DNA from: Nitrososphaerota archaeon
GTDB lineage: Archaea > Thermoproteota > Nitrososphaeria > Nitrososphaerales > Nitrosopumilaceae
Direction of reading: 5' to 3'
Assembly: GCA_005877205.1 (NCBI GenBank)
Contig: VBPL01000041.1
Coordinates: 1 to 64,000 of the forward strand
DNA: 64,000 bases
Positions 7,107-23,286 of this stretch are shown here, piece by piece. A model generated the notes under the pieces. The model was not told the DNA's origin. It saw only the letters and a list, made by a program, of their open reading frames with translations, and did not search any database. The position numbers were made by a program, and so were the translations under genes. Positions within the stretch are counted from its first letter, which is position 1. The number at the start of each line of letters is the position of its first letter.

Positions 7107-9230
7107 TTAAACCTTATCTGGATTGTGTTTTCCCCATTGATGCAGAGCTGATGCAGTAGCAACCCAATTTCTTATGTCGTCATAGACTGGAACTTGGTTT
7201 TTCTCAATTAGCGTTGATACTTTTTGTGTATAAGGACCGCCATTTCCACCTACCAATAATGGCTTTTTGGCCTGTTTTGAAAATTCTCCTAGATAATCTA
7301 TTATTGTCTCTTCCAGCGGGTCATCCTGAAAGACAAACCAAGGCATTACAATGTCGATGTTTGGATCATCCATAAATTTCTGAATTGCGTACCTGTAATC
7401 ATCAGCATTTGCCCCTCCTGTGACATCAACAGGGTTGCCATTTCCAATAACATAAGTTGGTGGATAATGTTCTTTCATCTCCTTTAGTGTCGCTTCTGTA
7501 ACTTTACCAAGCTCCAATCCAAATTTTTCAAACTGGTCGATTGCTCCGATCATTGGACCTGCACCATTGCTTACTAATCCAACTCTATTTCCTTTTGCTG
7601 CTGGCTGCCATCCCAATCCCTTGACAACAGAAGCAAGCTCCTGATAACTATCAACAGAAATTATTCCTGCTTGTTTGAAAGCACCCATGATAATAGCATT
7701 TGAACCACCAAGCGAACCTGTATGCGAAGCTGCCTGTTTTGCCCCTAATGCAGTTCTTCCACTCTTCCAAATCACAATAGGTTTATGTTTTTCTTTCATG
7801 ACACGCTTTGCGGTTTCAATAAACTTACGACCATCACCAAACCCTTCTACATATAATGCAATTACCTTTGTTTGTGGATCGTTTGCCAGATACCATATCA
7901 TGTCTGCTTCATCGACATCTGACCTGTTACCATAACTTACCATTTTTGACAATCCAAAGGAATCTGCTGTCTCAAGGAAGCTTATTCCCATAGTTCCGCT
8001 TTGAGATAATAGTGCAACTGGTCCCAACCTTGCGCGAATCATTCTTGCCTGGCCTTGGAATGCACAGTCTAATCTGTTTGCAGCATTAAACATACCAATG
8101 CAATTTGGACCTATTATTCTGATTTCGTGGTGTTCGGAGAGTCTCTTTATCTCAGCTTCGTACGCTGCTCTTTCGCCACCGAGTTCTTTTCCTCCGCCCG
8201 AAACAATCACAACATTGTGGATTCCTTTCTTTGCACAGGTTTCCAAAACAGGTGGAGTTACGGAAAGGTCAACACATACTATAACCAAATCAATTGGTTC
8301 GGTAACAGATTCAAGTGAGGGATAGCATTTGAGCCCGAGGATCTCTTCAGCTTTGGGATTTATTGGATAGACTTTACCTTTGTAGTCGTGCTTTGCTATG
8401 CTATCAAGAACCGAGTTTCCAATTTTACCAGGCGTAGCAGACGCACCTACAAGGGCAACAGACTTTGGTGTGAAGAAGGTTTCCATGAATTCGATATTGG
8501 GTCGGGTAGCAGAGATTGCATCTTTTTTGAATTCTTTTCGCAAAATAATTTTTGCGTCAACTACGTGATATGATTTTGGATATACCACAATTGGGTTAAA
8601 GTCAACACTGTCAAAGTAACCAGCATTGTCTACTCCTATCTTTCCTATCTGAACAAGTGCTTTTGCAAGCATATTCAAATCGATAGGCTTACTTCCTCTA
8701 TAACCTTGCAGGATCTTTGAACCCTTCAGTTCTGCAAGCATTGACTTTGCATCATCTACAGTAATCGGAAGCATTCTGAAAGCAACATCTCTGAAAATTT
8801 CTGTCAAGACTCCGCCTAGTCCAACCATTATTACTGGACCAAACTGAGGATCGTTTTGAAGTCCTACGATAATCTCAACACCTTGAGGAACCATCTTTTC
8901 AAGTAAGATCCCTTTTAACCGGACTCCATTCTTCTTTGAGAGTCTTGAATACATCTCAGTGAATGTCTTCTTCACTTCTTTTTCATTCTGTAGTCCTACC
9001 TTTACTCCGCCAACATCTGTCTTGTGAAGAATTTGTGGTGATACAACTTTCATGACAAGAGGAAAACCAAGTTTCTTAGCTTCCTTGGTTGCCTCTTTAG
9101 CTGTATTTACCAAGGCATATCCTGGAACTTTAACTCCATATTTTCTCAGGACTGCTTTTGAGAGATCTTCTGTGATTACCTTATGATCAGTTGAAATGGT
9201 TTCTTCAAAAATCTTTGTGACCGTGCTCAA
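7107..9230 (-). CDS. ADP-forming acyl-CoA ligase, likely 3-hydroxypropionate-CoA ligase
   Basis: A fused ADP-forming acyl-CoA synthetase of about 707 residues with the order ATP-grasp, CoA-binding, ligase. The ATP-grasp part has [20 protein letters not shown] near residues 57-76. The CoA-binding domain starts at [17 protein letters not shown] near residue 260. The phosphorylated histidine lies in [11 protein letters not shown]. In ammonia-oxidising archaea such enzymes activate 3-hydroxypropionate or 4-hydroxybutyrate at low ATP cost; the neighbouring dehydratase favours 3-hydroxypropionate. I chose the TTG at 9230, with GGTGA nearby. A GTG at 9278 would add 16 residues. Confidence 0.85.
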
Positions 9231-9337: not shown

Positions 9338-10027
9338 TCAAAGATTGAATTCTGACTTGAAATTCCGGTAAAACACACTCATGTTGTTTTGAATTGTGTC
9401 TATATTCTCGGGTATTTTTTTTGCTATTTCTTCTGGATCGATGTAAGGAACAGCATTGAGTTCGTTTTTAGACTTTTCAAGCCATAATCGTATGGTTGAT
9501 TCATCTACTTCAAGATGAAATTGTACGCCCACTGCGCTACGAAGTTTGAATGCTTGATTTTCGTAATCTTTTGAATGAGCCAGTCGTATGGCACCACTAG
9601 GAAGCTCAAAAGTGTCTCCGTGCCAATGAAATACCATGGCAGGACTCTTAATCCCATAGAAAAGCTTCGAGTCAGACATATTATCAAATTCAACATCGTG
9701 ATAGAAACCAATTTCTTTTTTGTTTCCCCGATAAACGCTTGCCCCAAATGCTTTTGCGATTAGTTGGGAGCCTAAACATATTCCAAGGATAGGTATGTTC
9801 CTTCTGACTGACTCTCTTATGAGGTTGAGTTCTTCGTTAAGGTACGGGAGATCATCGTTTGCACTCTCGGGTGCACCAAGAATCACTATGGCTCGTGGAT
9901 CTATTGAAGGAATCTTTTCTTTTTTTGCCAAGACAGTTGTAGTTTTGAATCCATCTCTGCTAAGTAATTCCCCCAGAACAGCAGGCCCTTCATATCTTGC
10001 GTTTTGTATGATTAGTATGTCGAACAT
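9338..10027 (-). CDS. Class I glutamine amidotransferase-like protein
   Basis: A 229-residue GATase1 domain resembling the GMP synthase glutaminase but without a synthase partner. The nucleophile elbow ILGICLGSQLIAKAFG carries the Cys near residue 83, and the catalytic His/Glu pair is in VQFHLEVDE near residue 172. It should release ammonia from glutamine or cleave a gamma-glutamyl bond. The acceptor is unknown. The start lies 46 bases from the divergent mini-Toprim gene (using its GTG start). Confidence 0.8.
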   Translation of the reverse strand: MFDILIIQNARYEGPAVLGELLSRDGFKTTTVLAKKEKIPSIDPRAIVILGAPESANDDLPYLNEELNLIRESVRRNIPILGICLGSQLIAKAFGASVYRGNKKEIGFYHDVEFDNMSDSKLFYGIKSPAMVFHWHGDTFELPSGAIRLAHSKDYENQAFKLRSAVGVQFHLEVDESTIRLWLEKSKNELNAVPYIDPEEIAKKIPENIDTIQNNMSVFYRNFKSEFNL

Positions 10028-14125: not shown

Positions 14126-15271
14126 CTATGTGGATACTTTTTGTGGTTTAATTGGCCTTGCATGTAATCGTTTTAGGTGTTGTAGCGTTCGCTTAAACAC
14201 CTCAACACTCCTAAGGTATTCATCCGTGAACACTCGTTCGTCAATTGTGTGGGAGGCATGAGGATCACCAGGACCGTAGGTTACAACCGGTATATTCAAA
14301 GCATTTCCGATGATATTCATATCTCCTGTACCAGTTTTTCTTATTAGCTGTGGCCTTGCCTTTTCTACGTCAATGACGCCCAGTGTTAGTGCCCTCACAA
14401 GTGGAGAATTATGTGGTGCTTCAAAGGGTTCGGTTTCATCCAATATTGAATAAAATGCATTTACACCTTGCTTCTTTGCAATTTCTTGAACCGTGGTTGC
14501 AATCTTTTCTCCCACCATCTTGCAGTTCATGTCTACCGGTATCCTGATATCCAAAATGGCATCACATTCTAGGGCTGTCACGTTGTGGCTTGTACCGCCC
14601 TTGATCTCAGTGAGAGCAGCCGTTAACATCAGGCCCTTTGGTTTATTAGATTGATTGCCTTCTAATACATTCTTTAATGCATTAGTAAAAACATATGATT
14701 CCTCTATCGCATTTTTTGCTAGCCAAGGAGCACTTGCGTGAGCACTGTTACCAACATTTATTTTTAGATTTATGGCTATCCTGCCCTTGTATGCAATTGT
14801 GATATTTCTAATTCCGCTGGGTTCTCCAAAAATTGCATAATCTATGTCGGGTTTTTGTTTTACAAGACTCTTTATCCCAGTTGCATTTCCTTCTTCGTCT
14901 ACAACTCCTGCAAAGACTACGGTTCCGCTATTGTTTTGAAGAGAGGCTGCTGCAATAAGCATGGCCATCAACGACGCTTTTGCATCTGAGGCTCCGCGGC
15001 CATAAATAAACCCATTTTCGTTTTTTACCTTAATCTTTCCAGGTACCGTGTCCATATGGCCACATAATAAGATCTTTGGAGAGCCAGAGCCTTTTGTTGC
15101 GATCAGATTACCTACTTCATCGATGCGTATATTTTCAAATCCAAGATCATCACATTTGTCAGCCAAGAACTCGGCTAGTTGTTTTTCTGACAGAGAAGGA
15201 GTATATAGTCTCAGAGCCTTCTCTAGCATCTTTATGGAGTACCTGGGTGTAATGGTTATTGAAGAGTCCAA
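14126..15271 (-). CDS. lysK: [LysW]-lysine/[LysW]-ornithine hydrolase (M20 peptidase)
   Basis: A 381-residue M20-family zinc carboxypeptidase that releases lysine (and probably ornithine) from the LysW carrier. Metal ligands are visible in LLCGHMDTVPG (His/Asp), RGASDAKASL (Asp), VDEEGNATG (Glu/Glu) and DPHASHTIDERVFTDE (His). It starts with TTG three bases after the lysX stop, so it is translated from the same message. ArgE or DapE would be the alternative names, but the LysW neighbours decide for LysK. Confidence 0.88.
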   Translation of the reverse strand: MDSSITITPRYSIKMLEKALRLYTPSLSEKQLAEFLADKCDDLGFENIRIDEVGNLIATKGSGSPKILLCGHMDTVPGKIKVKNENGFIYGRGASDAKASLMAMLIAAASLQNNSGTVVFAGVVDEEGNATGIKSLVKQKPDIDYAIFGEPSGIRNITIAYKGRIAINLKINVGNSAHASAPWLAKNAIEESYVFTNALKNVLEGNQSNKPKGLMLTAALTEIKGGTSHNVTALECDAILDIRIPVDMNCKMVGEKIATTVQEIAKKQGVNAFYSILDETEPFEAPHNSPLVRALTLGVIDVEKARPQLIRKTGTGDMNIIGNALNIPVVTYGPGDPHASHTIDERVFTDEYLRSVEVFKRTLQHLKRLHARPIKPQKVST

Positions 15272-15274
15272 TTC

Positions 15275-16123
15275 TTATCTTCTCGACTTTATTGCGTAAT
15301 CAATCATCAAGGCTGGTATATCTACGCCAGTAACTCTAACGGTATTTTTGTATTCCGTTGTATTGTTAACCTCGTGAACTACCAAGCCCCTTTCCCTGCT
15401 TTCCATAAGATCGATACCAACTATTTGACCCTGAACAGCATTTTTTGCTTTGACACAAATATCTTCAAGCTCCTTAGTAACCTTACATTGTTCTGCCTTG
15501 CCGCCTAATGCCATGTTCGTTTTCCACTGGCCATTCCCAGAATATCTGTATATTGCTGCAACAACTTTGTCCCCTATTGTAATTGCCCTAAGATCTCGAG
15601 GCGGCCTGTCAACAAATTCCTCCAAATAGTATACTTGATAAATTGGATACATCTTCTCCCTTGTTTCCATTATGCCTTCGGCTGAATCACGATCTTTTAG
15701 TAATGCTATCATTCTACCCCAGCTTCCAACCGTAGGTTTCAATACCATCGGATAACCTCTTTTCTCAAGAAGTTCTAGAGCAGATTCCTCCGAGAAAGCT
15801 ACAGCACTGAAGGGAGTGGGTATTCCGTGTTTCGCTAGAAGCATATGAGTAAACAATTTATTTCCAGCGAAAATGCTAGTGTTCAAGGAGTTTATCACGT
15901 TTACTCCTTTACCTTCAAGTGCTGCAGTAGAATGAAGACTACGGTAATAGCTAACACATCTTTGGATAACAGTTCCAAAATTTTCTTCATTTTTATCCAA
16001 GTTTACAAATAAGTTCTTACAGTCTACCATCTTTGTATCGATGCCCTTTGCCTTGGCAGCATCGAAGAGAGCTTTTTCTTCCCACCTGATGGTATCGTAG
16101 AGAATCGATAAACTCGAGCTCAC
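15275..16123 (-). CDS. lysX: Alpha-aminoadipate-[LysW] ligase
   Basis: A 282-residue ATP-grasp ligase that joins the amino group of alpha-aminoadipate to the C-terminal residue of LysW. ATP-grasp motifs include PMVLKPTVGSWGR near residue 125 and the C-terminal HEVNNTTEYKN. The tail TTEYKNTVRVTGVDIPALM resembles bacterial LysX more than the second ligase at 21.1 kb does, and homocitrate synthase is in the same operon, so I assign lysine specificity here. The GTG start overlaps the lysW stop as GTGA. Confidence 0.82.
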   Translation of the reverse strand: MSSSLSILYDTIRWEEKALFDAAKAKGIDTKMVDCKNLFVNLDKNEENFGTVIQRCVSYYRSLHSTAALEGKGVNVINSLNTSIFAGNKLFTHMLLAKHGIPTPFSAVAFSEESALELLEKRGYPMVLKPTVGSWGRMIALLKDRDSAEGIMETREKMYPIYQVYYLEEFVDRPPRDLRAITIGDKVVAAIYRYSGNGQWKTNMALGGKAEQCKVTKELEDICVKAKNAVQGQIVGIDLMESRERGLVVHEVNNTTEYKNTVRVTGVDIPALMIDYAIKSRR

Positions 16124-16284
16124 TGGCCCCAGTCCTCACCAACAGTTTGTGCTGGTTTCAACTCAAAGCCGGAGGATCCCTTTGCAAGCTCAAAACTTGT
16201 CCCACAGTCTGGGCATGTTACTATCTCTCCTTCTATTGAATCCTTTGGAGGATTGATACTGGCATCACATTCTGGACATTTCAT
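16120..16284 (-). CDS. lysW: LysW-type carrier protein ending in Gln
   Basis: A 54-residue acidic carrier with a zinc ribbon: CPEC at 3-6 and CPDC at 24-27. Canonical LysW ends in EDWGE, and the side-chain carboxyl of the last Glu forms the bond with the substrate. This copy ends EDWGQ, read from codons GGC CAG TGA, so the acceptor carboxyl is an amide. The second copy at 21.9 kb keeps the Glu. The ATG is one base past the stop of homocitrate synthase, and the stop overlaps the lysX start by four bases. Possible explanations are deamidation, an inactive or regulatory copy, or a sequence error. Confidence 0.9.
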   Translation of the reverse strand: MKCPECDASINPPKDSIEGEIVTCPDCGTSFELAKGSSGFELKPAQTVGEDWGQ

Positions 16285-16285
16285 G

Positions 16286-17476
16286 TTATTTACCTGTCTT
16301 TATCTTCACTTGGGTGTCATTAATTATCTTTTTTTCAAGCCTGTCATCTAGAGGAATCTCAAGTAGATCTCCCATCCTTAGGTTCTTGAGCCCAGCAGCC
16401 ACCCTCTTTGCATGTTCATCATTCTGGTCCAGGCCTAAAAGTGACATGAGATAGGCAGCACCATTCTTACCAGCAAGTTCGCCAAAAACCATTCTCCTTC
16501 TGTTACCTACAACTTTTGGTTCTATAGGCTCGTATGCAGCAGGGTTCCTGAGAATTGCCGCTAGGTGAGTGCCAGCTTTGTGTTTGTAAGCTGTTGCACC
16601 AACAATAGGCTTGGAATCGTACGGCACTATATCTGTGTATTGTTCAATCAGTCTTGAAAGATCCATTAACATGTCTAATCTGAAATTGTTTGGAGATTTG
16701 TAAAGATAGGTTAGTGTAACTGCTGTTTCAGCAAGAGCGGGTATGCCAGTTCTTTCGCCAACTCCATCAATTGTAGTATGAATCTGATCTGCGCCTGCAT
16801 CACATCCTGCTAAAGCATTTGCTAATGCCAAACCAATATCATTGTGACAGTGTACGTCAAGTGGAGTCTTGATTTCATCATGAACAGTTTTCACGAGGTT
16901 ATACATACCGTTTGGTCTCATTATTCCAACCGTATCTGGTATACTTATTCTGTCTACACCTGCATCTGAGATTGCTTTGCATACCTTAATCAGAAATTCA
17001 GGCTCTGCCCTGCTAGCATCCTCTACCGTGAATCGCATTTTCAAACCATGTGACTTGGCATATTCTACAGTTTCAACTGCTCTTCTCATGGCCTCTTCTC
17101 GGGTTATTCTTAGTTTGTCTTTCATATGTACATCTGATATACCAAGGTACGTTGCCATCCAGCTTGCATCGCAGTCAAGTACTATGTCAACATCTTCTCG
17201 CAGGGCACGTACATGTGCTACAATATCAGCTCTTAATCCCTGCTTGATTATCGTCTTTGTTGCCTCTTTATGATCAGGCGAAACTACTGGCGAAATTTCT
17301 ATTTGATCAACTCCAAAGTAATCAAGCATCCACGCAATCTGGATTCGTTGCTTGTTCGAAAACGTTACACCGGGATGCTGCTCTCCTTCCCTAAGAGTAC
17401 TATCAAGAATACGAATCTTCTTTGGCATTGTGCCAATCTCGTTATACTTGTATGCGTAATAATTCGGATCGTCCAT
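16286..17476 (-). CDS. lysS: Homocitrate synthase
   Basis: A 396-residue member of the 2-isopropylmalate/homocitrate synthase family that condenses acetyl-CoA with 2-oxoglutarate, the first step of the aminoadipate lysine route. The catalytic opening IRILDSTLREGEQHPGVTFS and the metal-binding histidines in TPLDVHCHNDIGLALAN are intact. It leads the lysS-lysW-lysX-lysK group, which argues for homocitrate rather than isopropylmalate or citramalate synthesis. The ATG at 17476 or a downstream ATG (residue 17) could be the start. A palindrome lies just upstream. Confidence 0.88.
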   Translation of the reverse strand: MDDPNYYAYKYNEIGTMPKKIRILDSTLREGEQHPGVTFSNKQRIQIAWMLDYFGVDQIEISPVVSPDHKEATKTIIKQGLRADIVAHVRALREDVDIVLDCDASWMATYLGISDVHMKDKLRITREEAMRRAVETVEYAKSHGLKMRFTVEDASRAEPEFLIKVCKAISDAGVDRISIPDTVGIMRPNGMYNLVKTVHDEIKTPLDVHCHNDIGLALANALAGCDAGADQIHTTIDGVGERTGIPALAETAVTLTYLYKSPNNFRLDMLMDLSRLIEQYTDIVPYDSKPIVGATAYKHKAGTHLAAILRNPAAYEPIEPKVVGNRRRMVFGELAGKNGAAYLMSLLGLDQNDEHAKRVAAGLKNLRMGDLLEIPLDDRLEKKIINDTQVKIKTGK

Positions 17477-17500
17477 TGCTTATTTAGTATAAAAATTTAG

Positions 17501-17518
17501 CGAATATAAACATATTCG
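17501..17518. promoter_or_regulatory. Palindromic operator candidate at the lysS promoter
   Basis: CGAATATAAACATATTCG has perfect 7-base arms around a 4-base spacer, 25 bases before the lysS ATG. Read on the minus strand it contains TTTATATTC, which can itself act as the TATA box. A repressor bound here would block initiation. The Lrp-type regulator encoded next door at 17593-18012 is the obvious candidate protein, by position only. Confidence 0.5.
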
Positions 17519-17592
17519 TACAGAATTCGGCTAAATATGGCATTTACACGACGATTTACGTCATTAACTAGAAGAAGGAGCCGAACTTCGTT

Positions 17593-18012
17593 TTAGGTAA
17601 TAGTTCGAAGTATTATTACAGTATTGGTGTCAAAAACACCAGGAACTTTTCGTAGATTATCAATACAGGCGTTTATGTCTGTGATTGTTGGTGCTCTAAT
17701 AATTACAGCAATATCATATTGACCGGTTATTTCAAAAACCGTGTGTACACCTTGTAATTTTGCAAGTTTCGCTGAGACTTTGGATGTATCTGTTGCAGAA
17801 TCAACTGAAATCAGGATTATCGCGCTTGTAGAGTTAGCATCACCAGTTTCAATGGTAAATTTTTTTATCACACCACTATCAGTTAAGTTCTTTACTCTTC
17901 TTCTAACTGCAGATTCTGAAAGACTTAGTTTTTCTCCGATTTCAACAAAAGACTGTCTTGAATCTTTTTTTAACATTTCAATTATTGTCTCGTCTGTCTT
18001 GTCCCTATACAT
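17593..18012 (-). CDS. lysM: Lrp/AsnC-family transcription regulator (LysM-like)
   Basis: A full-length Lrp regulator of 139 residues: an N-terminal helix-turn-helix (SRQSFVEIGEKLSLSESAVR) and a C-terminal RAM domain with ITGQYDIAVIIRAP. LysM proteins regulate lysine synthesis in Sulfolobus, and this gene sits inside the lysine/arginine cluster between lysJ and lysS. AGGAGG precedes the ATG at 18012, which overlaps the lysJ end by eight bases; a start at 18048 would overlap by 44. It probably senses lysine or a related amino acid. Confidence 0.82.
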   Translation of the reverse strand: MYRDKTDETIIEMLKKDSRQSFVEIGEKLSLSESAVRRRVKNLTDSGVIKKFTIETGDANSTSAIILISVDSATDTSKVSAKLAKLQGVHTVFEITGQYDIAVIIRAPTITDINACIDNLRKVPGVFDTNTVIILRTIT

Positions 18013-19180
18013 TTCTTCTCTGTTCCTCCTTTGATAATATGGCATCAAGCGTTTCTAAAGCTTTGTTTATATCTGATTCGGAGATTACTAGAGGTGGCAA
18101 TAATCGCAATATGTTTTTGCCTGAGTAGAGTAACAATAGATTATTTGCGATTCCATCGAACAAAATGTCTTTTACATCAAATTTCATTTCGATTCCGATC
18201 ATCAAACCCCTGCCTCGCACTTCACGAATTATTTTGTGTTTTTCTTTTAACCTTTCCAATCCATCACGAAAGATATTTCCCATTTTGACAGCATTTTCTA
18301 CTAATCCATCTTCTGTTAGAGCCTGGATGGTTGCTATTCCTGCTGCACATGAGAGTGGATTTCCACCAAAGGTAGACGATTGTTCGCCTTTGCTAATAGA
18401 AGATAAAATGTCTGGTCTTACTAGAGTCGCTCCCATGGGGACTCCACCCGCTATTCCTTTTGCAAGGCACATAATGTCAGGTGTGGTCTCCCAGTGTTGG
18501 CTTGCCCACATTTTACCGGTCCTTCCTAAACCTGATTGGATTTCATCAAATATCAAGACAATTCCTTTTTCATTACACAACCTTCTTACCTCTTGCAGGA
18601 AACCATCTGGTACCACATGAATGCCACTTTCTCCTTGAATTGGTTCAAGGATGACAAGCGCTGTTTCAGAATTTACAGTAGACCGCAACGAGTCAAGATC
18701 TCCAAATGGTGAAAAAGAAACACTTTCTACAAGTGGTTCAAAGGATTTGCGATATTTTGGATTGAAGGTAACTGAAAGTGACCCAAATGATTTTCCATGG
18801 TACGATCCGTTCATTGCTACCATTCCTTTCTTTCCAGTGAATTTACGCGCGAATTTTAAGGCAGCCTCAACAGCTTCAGCTCCACTATTATTAAGAAACA
18901 CTTGACTTAGACCCTTAGGTGCTATCTTAATGAGGTTCTCAAGAAATTCTTCTCTAGTTTTGTTGTATAGTGAACTGTGGACTGTGATTATTTTTTCAAG
19001 TTGTGCCTTTAGTGCACGTACTACACGTGGATTACAGTGACCCACTAGAGCTACTCCATAACCGCCCATACAGTCTATGTACTCCTTTCCGTTTATGTCC
19101 CACACATGAGCTCCAAGCCCACGTTCTATCGTAACTGGAAATCTTTGGTAGATATTTCCCATGAATTGATCTTCAGTCAT
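18005..19180 (-). CDS. lysJ: [LysW]-aminoadipate semialdehyde/[LysW]-glutamate semialdehyde transaminase
   Basis: A class III PLP aminotransferase of 391 residues. FDEIQSGLGRTGKMW carries the PLP-binding Asp and CLAKGIAGGVPMGATL the Schiff-base Lys. It aminates the semialdehyde on the LysW carrier; in archaea of this type one enzyme normally serves both lysine and ornithine branches. I chose the ATG at 19180, whose ATGA overlaps the lysZ stop. A further ATG lies 18 bases upstream. Confidence 0.87.
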   Translation of the reverse strand: MTEDQFMGNIYQRFPVTIERGLGAHVWDINGKEYIDCMGGYGVALVGHCNPRVVRALKAQLEKIITVHSSLYNKTREEFLENLIKIAPKGLSQVFLNNSGAEAVEAALKFARKFTGKKGMVAMNGSYHGKSFGSLSVTFNPKYRKSFEPLVESVSFSPFGDLDSLRSTVNSETALVILEPIQGESGIHVVPDGFLQEVRRLCNEKGIVLIFDEIQSGLGRTGKMWASQHWETTPDIMCLAKGIAGGVPMGATLVRPDILSSISKGEQSSTFGGNPLSCAAGIATIQALTEDGLVENAVKMGNIFRDGLERLKEKHKIIREVRGRGLMIGIEMKFDVKDILFDGIANNLLLLYSGKNILRLLPPLVISESDINKALETLDAILSKEEQRRNV

Positions 19181-19977
19181 TTTGAAATCACTGTGCAATT
19201 GTCGTGAGCAATGGCCGATGATACAGGATTTTCTTTTTGGCCATTTGCAATTAGAGCTTCTTTTACACCCATCTCTAATGCTTCTGTGGAGGCTAGAATT
19301 TTCTTTTCCATCCCAAATCCTATTTTTGGTAGAATCTCCTTTGCTTCTGCTAAAGATAACTTGTTGACTAGCTTATCATCCATTAGTAGACCGTCTACGT
19401 TTGTAAGAAATAGTATCTTGTCTGACCGCATCTTTCCAGCTACATATGCAGCAGCTCTGTCACCGTCCACATTTAGAAAATCAAATTCCTCACTGATTGC
19501 TATCGGTGATATGACAGGAACATATCCTTGATCCAAGATTGACCTTACAAGATTAGTATTTACATCTTGTATCTTTCCAGTATATCCTCCATCAATTGCC
19601 ATCTTTCTTCCTTTTTCGTTAATGACAACCAGCTTCTTTTTTCGCTCTGCCTGGATTATTTTTCCATCTATTCCTGAAAGACCAACCGCATTGATTCCAT
19701 TTTTTTGAAGCATTCCAACAATTATTTTGTTTATCTTGCCAGACATAACCATTGTGAAAATTTCTGCTGTTTCCTTGTCAGTGTATCTACTTTTGATTCC
19801 TCCAGGCGATACAATGAATTTCTGTTCTTTTCCAAGAGCTTCAGAAATCTTGGTGACCTCTTTGCCTCCACCATGTACTAGTATTACTTTTTCTTGTTCG
19901 GACACTTTCTTGAGATCAGATATTGTGGAAGGATGAAGACCATCTACTACACTCCCTCCTATCTTGATTGTTATCAT
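19177..19977 (-). CDS. lysZ: [LysW]-aminoadipate/[LysW]-glutamate kinase
   Basis: An amino-acid kinase of 266 residues that phosphorylates the carrier-bound acyl chain. MITIKIGGSVVDG at the start and VILVHGGGKEVTK near residue 35 are the phosphate and substrate loops, and FLNVDGDRAAAYVAGKM is the conserved C-terminal site. It resembles ArgB but its LysW-linked neighbours decide the name. It lies four bases after lysY and overlaps lysJ by four bases. Confidence 0.87.
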   Translation of the reverse strand: MITIKIGGSVVDGLHPSTISDLKKVSEQEKVILVHGGGKEVTKISEALGKEQKFIVSPGGIKSRYTDKETAEIFTMVMSGKINKIIVGMLQKNGINAVGLSGIDGKIIQAERKKKLVVINEKGRKMAIDGGYTGKIQDVNTNLVRSILDQGYVPVISPIAISEEFDFLNVDGDRAAAYVAGKMRSDKILFLTNVDGLLMDDKLVNKLSLAEAKEILPKIGFGMEKKILASTEALEMGVKEALIANGQKENPVSSAIAHDNCTVISK

Positions 19978-19981
19978 TTTT

Positions 19982-21034
19982 TCACACTGGAGTGAGGGGA
20001 GAATACGCTATGCCATCCATCTCATTAAATCCTGCCATTACATTCATGTTTTGTATGGCAGAACCTGCTGCACCTTTCATAAGATTGTCTGATGCAGAGA
20101 GTGCAATTAATCTATGATTGTCCTCATCTATATCAAATCCAATATCGCAAAAGTTGGATCCTACGACAAATTTTGGATCAGGGAATTTATAGAATCCTTT
20201 CTTGTCACGAATCAGTCTGATGAATTTTTCATTTTGGTACTGTTCACGATAGATTTTCCATATATCCATTTCACTTACCTCCTGAATAAGGAAAGTGTGA
20301 TTTGTACACAAGATTCCCCTCACAACATCCACCGCATGAGGACTCATTGATATCTTGATTTTCTTTCCTGCCACTTGGCTTAGCTCCTGTTCAATTTCTC
20401 CAGTGTGTCTATGTTTGGCGGGTTTGTACGGTCTTATGACTCCAGACCTCATAGCGTGATGAGTTCCTGCCTCAGAACCTGCCCCCGCTCCTGATGAACC
20501 GATCTTTGAATCTACTACAATGTGTTCAGAATCAATAATGTCCCTTTTTACTAGCGGATATAATGCAAGAATTGATGTTACTGCCATACATCCGGGACAT
20601 GAAACTAGCTGAGCCTTTTTGATTTCTTCTCTGTGTATTTCTGGAATGCCAAAGACTGACTTTGAGAGCAGCTCGGGATACGGATGCTGCCATCCATACC
20701 ACTTGTCATAATCAGGTGCGTTGTGCAACCTATAATCTGCACTCAAGTCTATTACCTTCATACCACGATCGTAAAATGCTTTTACAATATCCACAGCAGT
20801 TCCATGTGGTACCGCTGTAAACACTAGATCGCATTTGTCTGATAACTTGTCATAATCAAGCTCGGAAAATGTCAGATCAGTGAATCCTTTCAAGGCAGGT
20901 TGAATCCTCGAAATGTATTCTCCAACATACTGCCTTGAAGTAACCATTGCTATTTCGACTTTGGGATGACTAACAAGTAGTCTTAGAATTTCTCCACCGA
21001 CATACCCTGATGCTCCAACTACTCCGATTTTCAT
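19982..21034 (-). CDS. lysY: [LysW]-aminoadipyl/[LysW]-glutamyl phosphate reductase
   Basis: An ArgC-type reductase of 350 residues. The NADP-binding N-terminus is MKIGVVGASGYVGGEILRLL and the catalytic cysteine lies in LVSCPGCMAVTSIL near residue 148. It reduces the carrier-bound acyl phosphate to the semialdehyde. It follows argX by 30 bases in the minus-strand operon and probably serves both amino-acid branches. Confidence 0.88.
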   Translation of the reverse strand: MKIGVVGASGYVGGEILRLLVSHPKVEIAMVTSRQYVGEYISRIQPALKGFTDLTFSELDYDKLSDKCDLVFTAVPHGTAVDIVKAFYDRGMKVIDLSADYRLHNAPDYDKWYGWQHPYPELLSKSVFGIPEIHREEIKKAQLVSCPGCMAVTSILALYPLVKRDIIDSEHIVVDSKIGSSGAGAGSEAGTHHAMRSGVIRPYKPAKHRHTGEIEQELSQVAGKKIKISMSPHAVDVVRGILCTNHTFLIQEVSEMDIWKIYREQYQNEKFIRLIRDKKGFYKFPDPKFVVGSNFCDIGFDIDEDNHRLIALSASDNLMKGAAGSAIQNMNVMAGFNEMDGIAYSPLTPV

Positions 21035-21064
21035 TGATACACTCCTACCATAACACAGTATAAT

Positions 21065-21919
21065 TTATCTTATAGCTGAAGTAACTGCGTATTCGATCAT
21101 TTCTTTTGGAATGTTTCGTTTTGCAACCTTTGCCAGCCCCTTGAATTCTACGGTATTGTTTATTTCGTGAACTACGAGCCCATGCTTTTCATCTTCCATG
21201 ATGTCAATACCCAGGATTCCACCACCGACAGCTTGGGATGCCTTGATGCAAAGATCCTCAAGTTCTTTGGTGATTTCGCAGGAGATTGGTTCTGCGCCAA
21301 GAGCGATGTTTGTCTTAAAACCACGCGAAGTTCGATACATGGCTGCAATTACATTACCTCCAACTGCTATCGCTCGAATATCCCTCGGGGGTCTTTTCAC
21401 CATTTCCTGCAAATAGTATATCCTATCGAGAGGGCCATCGCTTAATTCTCTTACTTCGACTATTGCGTCAGCAGTATCTCTATCCTTTAACGGCATGACG
21501 CCTCTACCCCAACTTCCTATGACGGGTTTGATAACCAACGGGTATCCCTCTTTATCTAATATCTCCAATGCCGCCTCCGAAGAAAATGCAAAGTAGGTCT
21601 TTGGAGTAGGTACATTGTGCTTTTTTAACAAAAGAGATGTTAGCATCTTGTTTCCGCAATTATTGGCAACTTCAAACTTGTTGACTACGGGTACATCTAG
21701 GAATTCTAGACATGCAGTGAAATGAAGGCCGCGAAAATAACTAACACATCTTTCAATTACTACATCCCCAAAGTCAAAATTATTTTTCTTGCTTTCAGTG
21801 CTGATTTGGGTTATTTTTGCATCAATCATCTTCGTATCGTGTCCTAGCTCGATTGCTTTCTCTTCGAGCATTTTCTCCTCTACTCTTACTCTATCGAACA
21901 CGATGCAAACCTTCGGCAT
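21065..21919 (-). CDS. argX: Glutamate-[LysW] ligase
   Basis: The second ATP-grasp ligase, 284 residues and clearly paralogous to LysX at 15.3 kb (shared PMV/PLVIKPV-GSWGR, SLHSTA/GLHFTA and NNT-E-K motifs). Its tail NNTVEFKGLAKVAKRNIPK diverges from LysX. Placement between a canonical LysW and argininosuccinate synthase suggests that it loads glutamate for arginine synthesis. The ATG directly follows the lysW stop. The specificity call is by context and could be reversed. Confidence 0.78.
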   Translation of the reverse strand: MPKVCIVFDRVRVEEKMLEEKAIELGHDTKMIDAKITQISTESKKNNFDFGDVVIERCVSYFRGLHFTACLEFLDVPVVNKFEVANNCGNKMLTSLLLKKHNVPTPKTYFAFSSEAALEILDKEGYPLVIKPVIGSWGRGVMPLKDRDTADAIVEVRELSDGPLDRIYYLQEMVKRPPRDIRAIAVGGNVIAAMYRTSRGFKTNIALGAEPISCEITKELEDLCIKASQAVGGGILGIDIMEDEKHGLVVHEINNTVEFKGLAKVAKRNIPKEMIEYAVTSAIR

Positions 21920-22087
21920 CTATTCTCCCCAATCTTCGCCTACTTTTTCAGCATGTTTTAATTCGCATACGCTACCGTTTTTGGAAGCAATCTCAAAATC
22001 TGACCCACAATCAGGGCAGGAGATTATTTCTCCAACACTTGCGTCGTCTGGAATTTTTATTTTGGCGTCACATTCTGGGCAATTCAT
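21920..22087 (-). CDS. lysW: LysW/ArgW amino-group carrier protein (canonical EDWGE end)
   Basis: A 55-residue carrier with CPEC and CPDC zinc knuckles and the normal C-terminus GEDWGE. It holds the growing substrate by an isopeptide bond to its final Glu. I chose the ATG at 22087 because GAGGTGA precedes it at ribosome-binding distance. A GTG at 22102 overlaps the argG stop as GTGA and would add five residues. It is the only LysW in the window with the loading residue intact. Confidence 0.92.
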   Translation of the reverse strand: MNCPECDAKIKIPDDASVGEIISCPDCGSDFEIASKNGSVCELKHAEKVGEDWGE

Positions 22088-22098
22088 TCTTTGATCTT

Positions 22099-23286
22099 TC
22101 ACCTCTTTTTTAGTAATTTATTAGCTTCTGTTGATTGAAGTCCCCATAATTCAACAAATCCCTTTGCAAGAGTTTGGTCAAAAGTGGAACCAGAGCCGTA
22201 TGTTGCCAAGTCATGACTATACAGGGAATAATCGGATTTTCTCCCAACAACTCGAAGACTTCCTTTGAACATTTTCAGTTTTACAGTTCCGCTAACTCTC
22301 TTTTGTGTCGCATTGATAAACATATCTAAATCTGATTTCAGAGGATCTTGCCAAAGCCCAGAATAAGCTAACCAAGCCCATTCTGAATCGACGATGGCTT
22401 TGAATTTCAATTCATGTTTTGTTAGAACCATTTTTTCCAGATCGGTATGTGCTTCAATGAGACAAGTAGCAGCCGGCGTTTCATAGACTTCCCGTGATTT
22501 TATCCCTATTACCCTATCTTCGATGTGATCTACTATGCCTATACCACAGTTTCCGGCCTTTTTGTTGATGTATCCAATAAGTTCTATTGGTTTGAGATTC
22601 TTACCATCAGCTGATATTGGTACTCCTTCCTTAAACTTGACTTCTAAATACTGCGGTTTTTCAGGTAAATCCTTTGTTTTTACCCAGATGAACGCATCTT
22701 GTGGAGGTTCTGCGTATGCATTTTCCAAGTCCCCTCCTTCTATTGCCCTTCCCCACAAGTTTTGATCGACGCTAAATCTTTTTGCTGTGGTATCAATTTC
22801 TATTCCATGTTTTTTTGCAAATTTTAATTCGATATCACGCGTAAGATTGAGATCTCGGATTGGAGCAATAATTGGAAGGCCTGAACTAGATCGCATTGTG
22901 ACATCAAACCTGACTTGATCGTTTCCTTTTCCGGTACATCCATGAGCCAGCGCCTTCGCATTTTCCTTTTTTGCTATTTCTACAACTTTTTGTGCAATAA
23001 GTGGCCTAGCTAGCGCAGTTGCAAGACAGTATTTCTTTTGATACAGAGCATTTGCCTTGATGGATGGGAAGATGAAATCTCTTACGAATTCTTCTCTAGC
23101 ATCTAAATTATAATGCCTTACGACTCCAAGTCTCTTTGCTTTTGTAGCAACCTTTTTTTTATCATCGCCTTGGCCAACATCTATTGTTACTGTGATGACA
23201 TCGAGGTTGTGTTTTTCTTGAAGATATTTCACAACTACTGATGTATCTAACCCACCAGAGAAAGCCAAGACCGCTTTTCCTTTCAT
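22099..23286 (-). CDS. argG: Argininosuccinate synthase
   Basis: A 395-residue enzyme joining citrulline and aspartate. The ATP pyrophosphatase loop VLAFSGGLDTSVVVKYL starts the protein, and GCTGKGNDQVRFDV and the later SDYSLYSHDLATYGSG are typical. It heads the operon argG-lysW-argX-lysY-lysZ-lysJ, tying the canonical LysW to arginine. ArgH is not in the window. Confidence 0.95.
   Translation of the reverse strand: MKGKAVLAFSGGLDTSVVVKYLQEKHNLDVITVTIDVGQGDDKKKVATKAKRLGVVRHYNLDAREEFVRDFIFPSIKANALYQKKYCLATALARPLIAQKVVEIAKKENAKALAHGCTGKGNDQVRFDVTMRSSSGLPIIAPIRDLNLTRDIELKFAKKHGIEIDTTAKRFSVDQNLWGRAIEGGDLENAYAEPPQDAFIWVKTKDLPEKPQYLEVKFKEGVPISADGKNLKPIELIGYINKKAGNCGIGIVDHIEDRVIGIKSREVYETPAATCLIEAHTDLEKMVLTKHELKFKAIVDSEWAWLAYSGLWQDPLKSDLDMFINATQKRVSGTVKLKMFKGSLRVVGRKSDYSLYSHDLATYGSGSTFDQTLAKGFVELWGLQSTEANKLLKKR

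Follow-up and report, generated by a model that had tools for sequence, protein, structure and literature searches.

Carriers of the LysW/ArgW type are known from T. thermophilus, S. acidocaldarius, T. kodakarensis and Natrinema gari, and their terminal Glu residue is regarded as the defining chemical handle of the family. The known loading site is the gamma-carboxyl of this residue, the GSWGR motif of the ligase reads the EDWGE tail, and the E54A mutation in the haloarchaeal ArgW of Natrinema leads to arginine auxotrophy (PMC10433800). The substrate of the ligase is reflected in a signature, which is Asn-Thr for aminoadipate and Gly-Phe for glutamate (PMC10433800). A second system of relevance is mycobacterial pupylation, where Pup-Gln is deamidated by Dop while species with Pup-Glu skip the deamidation (PMC12288473).

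The locus described here resembles the LysW/ArgW systems in the two zinc knuckles found in most of those carriers, in the EDWG tail, in the cognate LysX or ArgX gene adjoining the carrier gene and in the accompanying LysZ/Y/J/K set. It differs in that its lysX-side carrier encodes Gln, with a side-chain amide, whereas the known carriers end in Glu with a loaded gamma-carboxylate. Archaeal lineages that include the main soil and ocean ammonia oxidizers encode an amide at the LysW end, some of them without an alternative carrier. The choice would then lie between a maturation enzyme of lysine/arginine biosynthesis that has gone unrecognized and is convergent with Pup priming, and a linkage chemistry unlike that of the textbook. 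Annotation is affected as well, since EDWGE serves as the motif by which a LysW is recognized.

The lysX-side carrier gene and its last codon

The window, a stretch of 64,000 nucleotides from a Nitrososphaerota archaeon of the ammonia-oxidizing type, contains a lysine/arginine cluster at 14126-23286 with every gene on the minus strand (Table 1). The gene order is argG, lysW(E), argX, lysY, lysZ, lysJ, lysM, a homocitrate-synthase-family gene, lysW(Q), lysX and lysK, which places the Gln-ended copy between the homocitrate-synthase-family gene and lysX; the original prediction had put it in the homocitrate synthase-lysX operon. The ORF at the head of the arg part is presumably argG. The enzyme family encoded at 16286..17476 is certain, its exact substrate less so because the TIGR02146 score is under the cut-off. 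The ligase beside the Gln-ended carrier was assigned as LysX and the other as ArgX, since they carry EYKNTV and EFKGLA, respectively, at the published signature (PMC10433800).

Table 1 Features of the lysine/arginine cluster in window coordinates
Feature	Position	Strand	Evidence
LysK, [LysW]-lysine hydrolase (M20 metallo-amidohydrolase)	14126..15271	-	TIGR01902 258.7 bits, cut-off 163.1
LysX ligase; Asn-Thr (AAA-type) signature, GSWGR	15275..16123	-	TIGR02144 336 bits, cut-off 275.6; motifs from translation
LysW paralogue, EDWGQ end (lysX-side carrier)	16120..16284	-	NF041070, PF21344, two CxxC knuckles
Terminal CAG (Gln) codon; final G is first base of lysX GTG start	16123..16125	-	Sequence; Gln conserved genus-wide
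Homocitrate/isopropylmalate synthase-family enzyme, probably homocitrate synthase	16286..17476	-	TIGR02146 381.6 bits, cut-off 413.6
LysM-type Lrp regulator	17593..18048	-	NF040947 188.5 bits, cut-off 180
LysJ/ArgD aminotransferase	18005..19198	-	TIGR00707 430 bits, cut-off 410
LysZ, [LysW]-aminoadipate/glutamate kinase	19177..19977	-	NF010662 296 bits, cut-off 194
LysY/ArgC reductase	19982..21034	-	TIGR01850 422 bits, cut-off 233.6
ArgX ligase (Gly-Leu signature, glutamate-type)	21065..21919	-	TIGR02144 304 bits; motif from translation
Second LysW, EDWGE end (argX-side carrier)	21920..22102	-	NF041070 88.3 bits
Presumed argG (argininosuccinate synthase), head of arg part	22099..23286	-	ORF; same order in relatives

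The lysX-side carrier is a 54-aa ORF, MKCPECDASINPPKDSIEGEIVTCPDCGTSFELAKGSSGFELKPAQTVGEDWGQ, with EDWGQ at its C-terminus. Its gene ends on the minus strand with ...GGTGAGGACTGGGGCCAGTGA, in which CAG occupies 16125-16123 and the stop codon TGA 16122-16120; the Gln end that had been predicted was thus confirmed. The protein scored 84.1 bits against NCBIfam NF041070 (cut-off 75) and 42.2 bits against PF21344 (cut-off 27), while both window LysW copies fell under the cut-off of the narrower equivalog TIGR01206. The remainder of the carrier was likewise as described previously, with both zinc knuckles, CPEC and CPDC, and the EDWG motif intact in the translation. The canonical C-terminal Glu is lacking, and since CAG encodes Gln, we classify this protein as a Gln-ended variant rather than a canonical LysW.

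The GTG start of lysX begins with the final G of the CAG codon, so the third codon base is constrained in this genus. The first base, C or G, which decides between Gln and Glu, is free of this constraint. The possibility that the overlap with the lysX start forces the Gln residue was therefore rejected: it accounts for the third base only, and Gln also occurs without such an overlap, encoded by both CAA and CAG.

Distribution of the glutamine end

A base-call error, CAG in place of GAG, was one outcome that could have undone the original prediction, and a second was that close relatives might all carry EDWGE at this locus. Neither held. The lysX-side copies recovered from the same genus all end in EDWGQ and none in EDWGE, while the argX-side copies all end in EDWGE. 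In the class as a whole, EDWGQ followed by a stop was present in 211 of 300 genomes and the reversed control pattern in none; EDWGE followed by a stop was present in 233 of the 300. Since the same codon occurs in many independently assembled genomes, with both CAA and CAG in use and with intact reading frames, sequencing or assembly error, a local oddity or a pseudogene is refuted as an explanation, and we found nothing in its favor.

Within the class, the Gln end was found in the family of the window (f1), f2 and f8 (Nitrososphaeraceae), and the remaining families showed no end but Glu. When 84,980 species genomes were scanned for IKPAQVVGEDWG[EQ] followed by a stop, 42 records were returned, 39 of them with Gln, and their titles are mostly those of Nitrososphaera, Nitrosocosmicus and Nitrosocaldus. 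Among 139 distinct LysW sequences, the last residue was Gln in 78 (63 CAG and 15 CAA), Glu in 61 and nothing else, a range that is partly preset because part of this sample was retrieved by the Glu/Gln pattern. The EDWG preceding it is invariant. Pattern searches of the 300 genomes for GEDWG plus any residue outside the set of Glu, Gln, Asp and His revealed no LysW. These observations establish the Gln-ended LysW as a real and recurrent variant of a known carrier family. It is apparently unreported, as no paper in the collection searched names both LysW and EDWGQ and broader searches of titles and abstracts turned up no mention of it.

The original prediction had also raised the possibility that the Gln-ended copy is replaced by the argX-side copy with EDWGE. 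This is contradicted as a general explanation by genomes without any Glu-ended carrier. Five genomes of the Nitrosocosmicus genus, three of them single-contig, have one LysW over the threshold, ending in EDWGQ, together with two ligases. The full cluster was read in four of the five and runs argG-argX-lysY-lysZ-lysJ-lysM-HCS-lysW-lysX-lysK, with no second LysW over the profile threshold beside argX. In one of them (G031; L102, 1267-3328), the reading frame of argG runs into that of argX and leaves no room for it, so the argX-side LysW is truly lost there; a second EDWGQ match in this genome is attributed to chance because it is followed by TGG rather than a stop. Inorganic medium supplemented with vitamins supports pure cultures of Ca. 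N. franklandus, a member of this genus (PMC4830249). Nitrososphaera-type genomes (g40) have two LysW copies, both Gln-ended, and no Glu copy. In three unrelated Thermoproteota families (f32, f37 and f55), a Gln-ended LysW is the sole copy over the threshold, mostly inside lysYZ-W-X-J/K clusters, and Glu-ended sisters occur within the same genus or family; a further family (f58; G402) has EDWGQ plus a second, Glu-ended copy. The states are swapped in genus g41, with Gln on the argX side and Glu on the lysX side, and four genomes of f1 have Glu on both copies. With sole-Gln, double-Gln, swapped and double-Glu genomes all represented, a Glu copy cannot be doing all the work in general.

Some arrangements depart from that of the window. 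In genus g24, the former argX-side LysW now lies in an unrelated neighborhood away from argX (L206 of G167, 420-593; L120 of G077, near 7436-7591) and also ends in EDWGQ; argG is now immediately before argX (L207, L208). In a Nitrosocaldus-like family, the homocitrate-synthase gene is by the argX cluster and lysW-lysX-lysK is about 150 kb away (G025; L112, L113); this f2 genome, G025, clusters with Nitrosocaldus on the ligase tree. Two MAG records titled Nitrosopumilus sp. (L177, L185) contain Nitrosocosmicus-like LysW and LysX and look mislabelled. The only match of GEDWG to another residue, in G220 (L271, near 1500), was rejected as a LysW: it is the tail of an ammonium-transporter-like protein ending in ...AYGEDWGV, and its likeness to LysW is probably a coincidence.

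Use of a glutamine-ended carrier

A tree of 141 ligases, each tagged with the C-terminal residue of its neighboring LysW, shows 14 changes between Glu and Gln by a quick method with some long branches, and at least 9 when only the well-supported branches are trusted. Sister pairs that differ between Glu and Gln include G418/G438 versus G364/G398, G426 versus G391 and G140 versus G117. GSWGR is present in 140 of the 141 ligases, the exception being one distant sequence. None of the alignment columns tells Gln from Glu partners in every one of the ten sister contrasts, and those that rank highest are variable and lack a residue that recurs consistently. The ligase substrate motif follows the distinction between LysX and ArgX and not that between Gln and Glu. 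An ATP-grasp ligase cannot phosphorylate an amide. Direct acceptance of Gln would predict a differing tail-reading site and none differs, so Glu and Gln behave as interchangeable encodings of a single mature residue, as deamidation would predict and as is known from Pup.

Since hundreds of related archaea encode Gln, some of them with no other copy, an unrecognized step probably converts the Gln-ended carrier before its use. Deamidation after translation is the best supported of the options named in the original prediction, because Glu and Gln exchange recurrently with no corresponding change in the ligase; it is from this unmatched exchange that we infer it. The reading we favor, and consider rather probable, is that LysW-Gln is a working carrier that is first produced in an inactive amide form and then deamidated to Glu before loading, with LysK as the most economical deamidase. 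The deamidation, its timing and the role of LysK in it are all deduced from sequence comparison. In this scheme, LysW would be made with a C-terminal Gln, whose side-chain amide would be hydrolysed post-translationally to give Glu. LysX would then phosphorylate the Glu gamma-carboxylate and join alpha-aminoadipate to it through the usual isopeptide bond, after which LysZ, LysY, LysJ and LysK would finish the cycle. As LysK would release LysW-Glu after the first turn, deamidation would be needed only once per carrier. Encoding Gln has no evident benefit, which counts against the deamidation model. A gate responding to nitrogen status is a speculation as to the reason; priming of the carrier by LysK, if true, would link an activation step of amino-acid synthesis to nitrogen.

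The main rival is an alpha-linked intermediate, in which LysX and ArgX activate the C-terminal Gln at its alpha-carboxylate rather than at its side chain, forming an ordinary Gln-AAA peptide bond, and LysK acts as a carboxypeptidase. It would make a deamidase unnecessary and is in keeping with the families of both enzymes, since several RimK members, by their family names, form alpha-linked glutamate bonds and the M20 family of LysK includes carboxypeptidases. We nevertheless regard it as unlikely. The ligase motifs are the same for Gln and Glu partners even in sister species, so the regiochemistry would have to switch many times; an irrelevant side chain also predicts other last residues, of which the above search of 300 genomes, whose pattern excluded Glu, Gln, Asp and His, found none, and E54A abolishes function in Natrinema. 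A little less likely still is that spontaneous or housekeeping deamidation, with no dedicated enzyme or by an unrelated amidase, yields enough LysW-Glu. It would agree with the lack of a deamidase linked to the operons and with the recurrence of Gln in unrelated lineages without a shared gene gain. Peptide Gln deamidates slowly at moderate temperatures, however, and Gln is fixed in mesophilic lineages all the same.

The Gln copy could instead be an unloaded, structural or regulatory LysW, with the argX-side EDWGE copy serving both pathways. The window genome does have a Glu copy, and a single LysW suffices for both pathways in Sulfolobus (PMC10433800). This could hold in genomes with both Glu and Gln copies, but the gene there is an ortholog subject to the same constraint, and the genomes listed above with Gln copies only, one or two, make this explanation improbable. 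Very improbable is a decoding of the last codon as Glu, for example by Glu-tRNA(Gln) that escapes the amidotransferase. Archaea do form Gln-tRNA(Gln) by the indirect route through Glu-tRNA(Gln), but such escape would be a low-level error expected at all Gln codons and leaves the fixation of Gln at the LysW end unexplained.

LysK and the search for a deamidase

For deamidation before loading, our candidate enzyme is LysK, an assignment that we hold far less firmly than the deamidation itself. It is the sole suitable enzyme found adjoining most Gln-ended carriers, and we consider it the most economical choice because it binds LysW, hydrolyses an amide on the same gamma-carbonyl and occurs in each of the 31 genomes examined, whether of the Gln or the Glu type, although one fragmented genome of the Glu type gave a lower score. 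Its equal presence in Glu-only genomes means that the occurrence of LysK cannot discriminate between the models. The window LysK aligns over its length with the nearest solved structure, the [LysW]-lysine hydrolase LysK of PDB 5xoy, and conserves the M20 motifs GHxDTV, GRGAxDAK and GEPSG; activity on LysW-Gln would be a putative addition to its function. To our knowledge, deamidase activity of LysK has never been reported. The proposal draws as well on what the operons lack: those whose unassigned ORFs were read share no candidate for a dedicated deamidase, and a homologue of Pup ligase/Dop (Pup_ligase, PF03136) was found in none of 20 genomes searched, with a positive Corynebacterium control. 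Both absences also count against the deamidation model.

Pupylation nevertheless offers a close parallel. Both systems have a small carrier with an encoded C-terminal Gln, both have Gln and Glu versions in related species, and the chemistry of both needs the gamma-carboxylate of a C-terminal Glu. In pupylation, the amide hydrolase that removes the cargo also primes the carrier, a dual role that for LysK is only proposed. The two differ in that their sequences are unrelated, the LysW ligase is of the ATP-grasp type and not PafA, no Pup_ligase-family gene accompanies LysW in the 20 genomes, and deamidation has been shown for Pup where for LysW it is inferred. It is conceivable, though we hold it as doubtful, that Pup-like convergent priming by deamidation of a C-terminal Gln, with LysK as the enzyme, operates in the lysine and arginine synthesis of many Thermoproteota and above all of ammonia-oxidizing archaea. 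A class I glutamine amidotransferase-like ORF, rejected as the deamidase because other genera have no homologue near their Gln-LysW loci, is present in the window at 9338-10027, about 5 kb beyond lysK.
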